Shown piece after piece: positions 15,245 to 19,059 of a DNA stretch of 64,000 nucleotides. The stretch's first letter is position 1, and the number at the start of each line of letters is the position of its first letter. The stretch spans positions 1,308,001-1,372,000 of the forward strand of contig NZ_JANDBC010000001.1 of the NCBI RefSeq assembly GCF_024320785.1, written 5' to 3'. Source of the DNA: Gracilimonas sediminicola. GTDB taxonomy: Bacteria > Bacteroidota > Rhodothermia > Balneolales > Balneolaceae. The notes under the pieces were generated by a model. It ran no database searches and was not told the origin of the DNA. It saw only the letters and a list, made by a program, of their open reading frames with translations. Both the position numbers and the translations under genes were made by a program.

Positions 15245-15613
15245 ATGAAGAACCAAATATTTGACCTGCAAAGACGTCTAATAAACTTTGCAATTTCGAT
15301 AATGGAAATTGTAGAACTCCTTCCAAAAACATATACAGGAACCCATTTTAAGAAGCAATTAGTCCGTTCCGGCACAGCGCCAGCTTTACTTTACGGAGAA
15401 GCACAGGCAGCTGAATCAAGAAAGGACTTTGTTCACAAAATGAAAATCGGCCTGAAAGAGCTGAGAGAATCCTACATAACGCTGACGATTATCTTGGAAA
15501 AACCGTTGATTAAAAACCAGAAAGCTATTGGCACGCTTAATGAATGTGATGAACTAATCTCTATTTTTTTCACCAGCATTACTACGGCAAAACAAAATAT
15601 GAAAAAGAGGTGA
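15245..15613 (+). CDS. Four-helix-bundle protein (23S rRNA intervening-sequence protein family)
   Basis: 122 aa, entirely helical, with the family signature: FDLQRRLINFAISIMEIVELLP, KQLVRSGTAPALLYGEAQAAES, FVHKMKIGLKELRESYITLTII, and a final helix DELISIFFTSITTAKQN. The family is found in 23S rRNA intervening sequences and as free genes, and its fold is shared by the Avd accessory protein of diversity-generating retroelements; neither an rRNA nor a reverse transcriptase is present here. The gene sits between two 25-nt direct repeats and inverted repeats, which suggests an inserted unit. Its biochemical role is unknown. Confidence 0.92.
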   Translation: MKNQIFDLQRRLINFAISIMEIVELLPKTYTGTHFKKQLVRSGTAPALLYGEAQAAESRKDFVHKMKIGLKELRESYITLTIILEKPLIKNQKAIGTLNECDELISIFFTSITTAKQNMKKR

Positions 15614-17495: not shown

Positions 17496-18779
17496 TCAGC
17501 TCCCCAGGCCTTGCCACTTTTTTGCGAAGCGCGCATACTCCCCGGCCTTCTCGTTCAAGCCGAACTTTTTATACGCATCCGATACCATTTGCGAAGCTTC
17601 CGCCAGACGGCGGTAATCGGCTTTGCTTGGGTTGGCTGCCGTTCCTTCCAGAGCTGGAACCTGTAAGGAGGTATTATCCTCCAGCGAATCAGGGTGAGTA
17701 TCCATTGTGAAATTCGCCTGATAAATAAGCGGCCAGAACTGTGACTTTCCATATACTTTCTTTCCGATCACCCAATACCATTCGTCTTTCTTTACCATAT
17801 AGGTAGAAGTACTTGTTTTACCTGTTGGAGCCGAAGACTTTTCTTTCACGGTCCCGGAAGAAGCAGCAGTTTGTGTTTCACTCTGCACGGGGTTATGCAG
17901 TTTTTCAGATTCGTTAGTTTCCTGAGCGGTCTCATTACTTTCTGCGCTTTCTGAAGACTGATTATTGGGTATCTGTTGTACTCGGGGCTGTTCAACCTTA
18001 GCCTGTTGTGCGGGCATATTGGTAGGCTCTGTGCGCAAAAAGAACCACCAAACCGATACAAGTGCTACCGCCAGCAATGCTGCCAATATCATAATCAAAG
18101 CTAAGTTATTACCCTCTTTCTTTCCTTCTCTTATGAAGGGTTTATCCGCAGGAGATTCTAATTCAGGTTCAGGTTCAGGCTCCGGATCCAGTTCAGCTTC
18201 TTCCGGTTCTTCTTCCGGTTCCTGCACATCAAAAGCAAAGGGATCCTCGTCGCGAGTATCTTCCTCAACCGGCTCTTGCTCAGAAGTTTCTTTTGCCTTC
18301 TCTTCTTCTAATTCGTCGTCTTCAGGTTCCGAATCATCTTCGGGCTCATCGTCAAACTGAAAAATCGTTTCTTTTACTTTCTCTTCCGGTTCCTGCTCCT
18401 TTTTTTCTTCGGAAGAAGTTTTCGGTTCATCGGATTCTTCGTCTTTTTCTTCCGGTTTCTCCCCAAGTAATTCGGTTTCCAAATGGGCAAAATTGGCATT
18501 CACATCTTCCTTAAGTGCTTTGTAAGGTGTGAACGAAACCCGTTTATGTGCCGGAATGGTAATCGGCTCTCCGGTTTGGGGGTTTTGCCCCTGCCTTTCA
18601 GCAACTTCCTTAACTTTAAAGCTTCCGAAATTGGTGATAGAGGCTTTGCCTGTTTCTTCCAGCTCCTGCTTTACCCTGGAGATCAGCGCTTTTGCAAAGG
18701 CCTCACTTTTCTGTTTGCTGAAGTCCGTTTTCCGCGATAAGGCTTCAATAATCTCGCCATATGTAACTTTGTTACTCAT
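17496..18779 (-). CDS. HU-domain membrane protein with acidic linker and LysM-like domain
   Basis: 427 aa from MSNKVTYGEIIEAL (the frame has four more residues upstream). Residues 1-91 are a complete HU/IHF-type DNA-binding domain (ASITNFGSFKVKEVAERQGQNPQTGEPITIPAHKRVSFTP). Residues about 107-212 are a very acidic E/D/P-rich linker. One strong membrane helix spans about 226-248 (LALIMILAALLAVALVSVWW). Then comes a Gln/Ser/Asn-rich spacer and, at about 326-379, a LysM-like module (YMVKKDEWYWVIGKKVYG...FWPLIYQAN...LQVPAL). Basic residues before the helix suggest the HU part is in the cytoplasm and LysM in the periplasm. Its gene overlaps the preceding HU gene by 8 bases. HU-SPOR proteins of similar plan are known in Bacteroidetes; a LysM version is less familiar. 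Confidence 0.9.
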   Translation of the reverse strand: MSNKVTYGEIIEALSRKTDFSKQKSEAFAKALISRVKQELEETGKASITNFGSFKVKEVAERQGQNPQTGEPITIPAHKRVSFTPYKALKEDVNANFAHLETELLGEKPEEKDEESDEPKTSSEEKKEQEPEEKVKETIFQFDDEPEDDSEPEDDELEEEKAKETSEQEPVEEDTRDEDPFAFDVQEPEEEPEEAELDPEPEPEPELESPADKPFIREGKKEGNNLALIMILAALLAVALVSVWWFFLRTEPTNMPAQQAKVEQPRVQQIPNNQSSESAESNETAQETNESEKLHNPVQSETQTAASSGTVKEKSSAPTGKTSTSTYMVKKDEWYWVIGKKVYGKSQFWPLIYQANFTMDTHPDSLEDNTSLQVPALEGTAANPSKADYRRLAEASQMVSDAYKKFGLNEKAGEYARFAKKWQGLGS

Positions 18780-19059
18780 CTTCACCCTCATTTATTTGAT
18801 CGCGCAGTGTGCTGCTTTGGCTGTAGTGCACCACTCGTTTTTTGGGGATAAGCATCATTTGCTCATAATGAGGGTTGTACGACTTATGCTCTTCCCTCAC
18901 TTCCGACTTAAAACTGCCTAAACCGGGAAGGGTAAACCCTTTGCCGTTGGAAAGAAGCATGGTCAGGCCTTCCACAAAAGAATCATACAGATCTTCCGTC
19001 TCAGTCTGCGTGAGCTCAAGCTCTTCCGCTAATTGTTTGAGTACCTCCGACTTTGTCAT
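18772..19059 (-). CDS. HU-family DNA-binding protein, small
   Basis: 95 aa: MTKSEVLKQLAEELELTQTE, then the beta-arm region GKGFTLPGLGSFKSEVREEHKSYNPHYEQMMLIPKKRVVHYSQS. The fold is HU/IHF, but the DNA-contacting arm lacks the usual NP(Q/T)TG sequence and carries SYNPHYEQ instead. It is the first gene of a two-gene unit; its stop codon lies inside the start of the membrane HU gene (ATGAGTAA overlap), so both are made together, probably as partners (inference). Confidence 0.9.
   Translation of the reverse strand: MTKSEVLKQLAEELELTQTETEDLYDSFVEGLTMLLSNGKGFTLPGLGSFKSEVREEHKSYNPHYEQMMLIPKKRVVHYSQSSTLRDQINEGEDE

Follow-up and report, generated by a model that had tools for sequence, protein, structure and literature searches.

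The window analysed here, a 64,000-nt stretch of the Gracilimonas sediminicola genome, carries on its minus strand two overlapping genes of the HU family. The first of the pair (18772..19059) encodes a small HU protein of 95 aa, which matches PF00216 at 1.8e-19 and belongs to a subfamily marked by the motif SYNPHY..MM.IP.K.VVHF. The second (17496..18779, with its ATG at 18779) encodes a protein of 427 aa in which an HU domain is joined through one transmembrane (TM) helix to a LysM domain, and its start is overlapped by 8 nt by the end of the small HU gene. A sequence-only reading of this DNA had proposed both the 427-aa HU/TM/LysM-like frame and the overlapping small gene, and both were confirmed at these positions. 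An alternative in-frame ATG at 18791 would yield a 431-aa version of the large protein; the 427-aa start is favoured because the 8-nt overlap is the commonest spacing among the pairs of relatives.

The large protein opens with its HU domain (residues 1-96; 18492..18779), in which the beta-arm and its NPQTG tip are intact. In a Pfam search this domain matched PF00216 at 6e-26 over residues 8-94, and the two HU proteins of the window scored 91 and 70.2 bits against a cut-off of 22.4. Both also match solved IHF/HU structures (in the case of the tethered HU domain, down to 5.8e-16), and an AlphaFold model built with seven relatives recovered the N-terminal HU fold with moderate confidence. Fifty-seven orthologs retain the whole architecture, 33 from Balneolaceae and 24 from a second order of Bacteroidota. 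Relative to the closest relative (G007), dN/dS is 0.09 for the HU domain and 0.12 for LysM, 0.36 for the acidic linker and 0.29 for the periplasmic linker, with zero amino-acid changes in the TM helix and the C-terminal tail; in more distant comparisons, where dS is saturated, dN is still lowest in HU. Judged by these substitution rates, the HU and LysM domains are under purifying selection and the linkers under weaker selection, and a chance fusion or frameshift artefact is ruled out by this selection together with the 57 intact orthologs.

Between the two folded ends lie two disordered stretches and the membrane helix. The cytoplasmic linker (residues 97-223; 18111..18491) contains 57 D/E and 14 K/R, for a net charge of -43; the initial description of an acidic linker of about 100 residues was thus right in its acidity and too short in its length, which is 127 residues. 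Among orthologs the length of this linker ranges from 42 to 367 residues. The single TM helix (residues 224-248; 18036..18110) has a hydropathy of 2.82, with the maximum at 226-244, and is modelled by AlphaFold as a helix over 225-248. It is followed by a periplasmic linker (residues 249-322; 17814..18035) with pLDDT <50 over 250-322, and the AlphaFold model with seven relatives shows disorder over both 97-223 and 250-322. Basic residues are concentrated before the helix: in the 33 Balneolaceae orthologs, K+R average 3.36 in the 15 residues before it versus 0.79 in the 15 after it (Wilcoxon p 5e-7), with 31 orthologs biased in this direction and 1 in the opposite one, and in the 24 second-order orthologs the values are 3.33 versus 2.25 (p 0.006). 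These p values are optimistic, as orthologs are not independent, and the direction is the same in both orders. Because basic residues precede the helix in both orders, the protein is predicted to lie N-in/C-out, with HU inside and LysM outside. The charge bias thus supports the earlier proposal that the two domains lie on opposite sides of the membrane and disfavours an arrangement with both on one side.

The LysM domain itself occupies residues 323-376 (17652..17813). In the AlphaFold model with seven relatives, residues 325-374 form a confident LysM-type beta-alpha-alpha-beta unit, and the C-terminal part folded alone gives the same succession with a core pLDDT >90. The leading Foldseek matches to this domain are mostly chains that contain LysM, and VIA-align placed at the top the E. 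coli protein Kbp (7vcm; Z 6.7, 1.5 Å over 54 residues) and 7pvc (Z 6.8, 2.3 Å over 63 residues); all VIA Z scores are at most 8, as expected with a domain of 50 residues. By sequence the window protein falls below the Pfam cut-off for PF01476 and has a weak match to NCBIfam PRK11198/Kbp (1.1e-5), and one ortholog (L074) passes the Pfam cut-off with 22.6 versus 20.9 bits. It is because the structure matches are consistent, and because this sequence support accompanies them, that we assign the domain to LysM. Confusion with an HU-SPOR protein is ruled out, as the window protein has no match to PF05036 (SPOR) in Pfam and the fold is that of LysM. It is clear from the models that the C-terminal domain is predicted to fold as LysM, as had been suggested from the sequence, and glycan binding is a prediction that follows the fold. 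The protein ends in a two-helix hairpin (residues 377-427; 17499..17651; helices 386-405 and 409-426), confidently predicted at 386-426, which in the alignment is present in Balneolaceae orthologs and absent from those of the second order, and for which Foldseek returned only weak TPR-like matches.

First scans suggested that the HU-TM-LysM architecture was limited to Balneolaceae, where it occurs in 49 of 60 sampled genomes; none of 86 sampled genomes from the rest of the class carries it. This restriction was overturned by finds in the second order, where 24 of 149 sampled genomes, representing 21 genera, carry the pair; a phylum sample of 395 genomes yielded no third group. The second order is probably Bacteroidales, given its size and the gene order ftsY, rimO, pair, MoxR, DUF58 in which the pair stands there. 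The conservation of the two-HU gene pair, which the sequence-only reading had suggested surveying in Balneolota, holds in Balneolaceae and beyond. Among the long-frame HU-CCDC81 loci of the second order, suspected at one point of encoding divergent HU-LysM proteins, 14 of the 15 retrieved encode long TM proteins with no LysM match, several with a SPOR-like C-terminus; the fifteenth (L145) is not counted.

The association between the two genes is tight. At 56 of the 57 loci the large gene is immediately preceded, on its own strand, by a small HU gene, which overlaps it at 49 and lies within 14 nt of it at 7, and in 54 Balneolaceae genomes scored for co-occurrence both genes were present in 42, neither in 12 and one alone in 0. 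At the remaining locus (G537), both HU units, the TM helix and LysM are fused into one protein of 458 aa (L153:989-2362), which stands between rimO and MoxR as in its relatives, with no separate small gene. Both of its HU units are divergent and fall below the PF00216 cut-off; in hhalign comparisons the first aligns with the profile of small HUs (E 7.8e-6) and the second with that of large HUs (E 1.1e-6). Given this divergence, the fusion speaks well, if not overwhelmingly, for pairing of the two HU units. A tree computed from 70 HU domains puts the small proteins in one clade (support 100/98) and the large ones in another (99/91), and the free HUs fall outside these two; the one apparently free row inside the small-HU clade (L104) in fact belongs to a pair, as the small member beside a divergent large protein. 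Because small and large HUs form separate clades apart from the free HUs, the tree indicates a single origin of the pair that predates its presence in two orders, which it may have reached by vertical inheritance or by joint transfer of both genes; with so few columns, the tree does not discriminate between these routes.

From these observations we infer a candidate mechanism. The small HU protein and the tethered HU domain would dimerise in the manner of IHF-alpha and IHF-beta, and the heterodimer would grip and bend chromosomal DNA. The larger subunit would carry the dimer at the end of its long and flexible acidic linker in the cytoplasm, cross the inner membrane and hold peptidoglycan with its LysM end. 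Such a link between nucleoid and wall could retain DNA close to the membrane or contribute to nucleoid placement as the cell grows and divides, the flexible linker allowing the chromosome to move and yet stay bounded. We consider it fairly probable that an HU heterodimer on DNA and a LysM domain on peptidoglycan link the nucleoid to the wall in this way.

The same anatomy would also suit a one-component membrane regulator, in which LysM acts as a sensor of wall condition and the cytoplasmic HU dimer changes local DNA structure or transcription, with no load-bearing tether; the tolerance for linkers of such different lengths suggests that a fixed mechanical geometry is not needed, as this reading would have it. 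We regard such a regulator as unlikely, since known HUs show little sequence specificity and no target operon beside the pair is conserved in both orders. In Gracilimonas and Balneola the pair is flanked by a convergent hemW downstream and fumarylacetoacetase upstream, and no division or partition gene is conserved beside it in both orders, which counts against the proposed link between nucleoid and wall. A role in DNA uptake, also raised at the outset, found no support, there being no competence or transport gene conserved beside the pair.

For a link between nucleoid and wall, the evidence at the DNA-binding end is divided. In Balneolaceae the HU arm is kept in both subunits, and the proline at its tip is present in 33/33 large and 32/33 small proteins. 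In the second order it is retained in 20 of 23 small HUs and in 2 of 23 large ones (lost in 21/23). Counted over all 56 pairs, 53 carry the proline on one or both subunits. The arms of the tethered pair are also poorer in basic residues, with 3.0-3.8 K/R in Balneolaceae versus 5.8 in free HUs; the tethered HU domains have a near-neutral charge, and those of a few orthologs (L097, L099, L104) are degenerate. The lower basic charge would be compatible with DNA binding that is weak or structure-selective, or with some members having lost it; the pair may have a low affinity for DNA or a ligand other than DNA. The scarcity of basic arm residues, the loss of the arm proline and the degenerate domains all count against a nucleoid-wall link.

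These features bear also on a second alternative, namely that the HU pair is a protein-binding module, as has been proposed for eukaryotic CCDC81, and that the whole serves as a division or envelope scaffold with no DNA bound. Low basic charge, the proline lost in part of the family and the degenerate orthologs would all fit such a scaffold, as would a sister HU-SPOR protein that lacks the HU arm and adjoins ExbB/ExbD. It is nevertheless quite unlikely in our estimation, given that the Balneolaceae subunits keep both the arm and its tip proline and that dN in HU is very low.

The sister system was found elsewhere in the same genome by an HU-CCDC81 search, in agreement with the initial remark that HU-SPOR proteins of like design exist. 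It consists of a 563-aa HU-acidic-TM-SPOR protein (G000:C1:1555229-1557127; L068:4227-6119, minus strand), a mini-HU gene (65 aa) that lies 4 nt upstream of it, and ExbB, ExbD and TonB-like genes downstream, the last three assigned by eye from sequence. All 20 relatives inspected have a mini-HU gene of 65-70 aa directly upstream of HU-SPOR, and so do two Rhodothermus-like genomes, where ExbB/ExbD-type genes (again assigned by eye) follow; the Rhodothermus-like matches of the scan for the HU-TM-LysM architecture turned out to be HU-SPOR. The SPOR pair, split over two adjacent genes in Rhodothermia, is fused in one polypeptide in the second order, where PF18174 and PF18175 precede the TM helix and SPOR (L151, L152). 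The HU-CCDC81-TM-SPOR proteins of Bacteroidetes (PF18174 + PF18175 + PF05036) resemble the HU-LysM protein in having cytoplasmic HU units, one TM helix and a C-terminal module of peptidoglycan-binding type. They differ from it in having SPOR for LysM, degenerate HUs, a tethered HU without its arm and an operon with ExbB/ExbD; the window protein, in turn, has no HU-CCDC81 units by Pfam (PF18175 at 12.2 bits versus 35, PF18174 absent). Judged by domain content, the LysM and SPOR systems share one plan, in which an HU pair, split or fused, is joined to a TM helix and a wall module, and they do not replace each other, since both occur in one genome. Because the SPOR-tethered HU has lost its arm, we see in the LysM system the stronger candidate for DNA binding. 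The association of HU-SPOR with ExbB/ExbD suggests a second, motor-linked tether, and the presence of a parallel system of HU pair, TM helix and SPOR in this very genome counts in favour of a link between nucleoid and wall. HU-SPOR tethers are already recognised, with Pfam families of their own, and a role in chromosome partition was reportedly predicted for the bacterial CCDC81-like HU proteins by Burroughs and colleagues in 2017.

In other families of Rhodothermia, a PF00216-like HU gene is directly followed by a gene for a protein of 353-382 aa that carries one TM helix and a pair of zinc-ribbon-like CxxC motifs (L070:2096-3538, L071:2311-3688, L072:2590-3696), which is possibly another HU-linked membrane protein.

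At the wall end of the protein, the question is what the LysM domain binds. The closest LysM by sequence and by fold is that of Kbp (YgaU), which is a soluble, cytoplasmic BON-LysM protein that binds potassium, and several further top structure matches are LysM domains of injection systems and phage baseplates. In addition, the canonical GDTL loop of LysM has become EWYW in Gracilimonas. This loop and the cytoplasmic location of Kbp count against a hold on the wall, and one may imagine, on the strength of all these points, a LysM fold with another ligand (an ion, a protein or an outer-membrane partner) that ties DNA to an envelope complex and not to peptidoglycan. However, orthologs of other lineages (L014, L015, L074) retain the canonical (A/K)G(Q/E)TL loop, and the positive-inside pattern places it on the periplasmic side, where the wall is, which makes another ligand very improbable in our view. 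A Kbp-like cytoplasmic protein is disfavoured by the TM helix and by the missing match to BON, which Pfam did not find in the window protein.

In Vibrio cholerae, HubP, a LysM-TM-acidic protein, positions the origin of chromosome 1 through ParA1 and needs its LysM for localization, and by likeness to it a positioning or segregation role for the HU-LysM pair may reasonably be proposed (PMC8789113). The likeness lies in a periplasmic LysM, one TM helix and a long acidic cytoplasmic part; the order, though, is reversed in HubP (LysM N-terminal, acidic part C-terminal), which depends on ParA1, has TPR and lacks an HU domain. Relatives of HubP are called FimV in other bacteria. IHF offers the other half of the comparison, having two different HU-family subunits that pair as is expected here, but both IHF subunits lack membrane and wall-binding parts, and the window proteins (65.4 and 45.5 bits) fall below the NCBIfam IHF equivalog cut-off of 111 bits.

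Most known chromosome anchors act via proteins of the ParA, Noc or SlmA type, which touch only the membrane or the divisome, and to our knowledge direct links between DNA and wall are rare. More tentatively, one may speculate that two distant Bacteroidota lineages tether the chromosome to peptidoglycan by two parallel and direct HU systems, the HU-LysM heterodimer and the HU-SPOR pair with its ExbB/ExbD motor, and that in each the membrane-spanning HU needs the soluble partner encoded by the adjacent gene for its grip on DNA. According to this speculation, the nucleoid would be anchored with no ParA, Noc or transertion intermediate. The module is a conserved two-gene candidate that predicts a soluble HU as the obligate partner of a tethered one, and this logic can be extended to a specific hypothesis on the HU-SPOR proteins, which are more widespread. 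A limited search of the open-licence literature yielded no description of the HU-LysM pair, an absence that is weak evidence of novelty. The second order, if it is Bacteroidales as is probable, includes common gut bacteria with genetic tools.

Two minor observations concern neighbouring genes. In one genome (G335), a transposase-like gene, IS256-like by eye (L075:3869-5107), lies between HU-LysM and MoxR and is absent from the related G329 (L074). Elsewhere in the window, at 15245-15610, a PF05635 gene for a four-helix protein of the type encoded in 23S rRNA intervening sequences is found between RadC and a hexapeptide-repeat protein.
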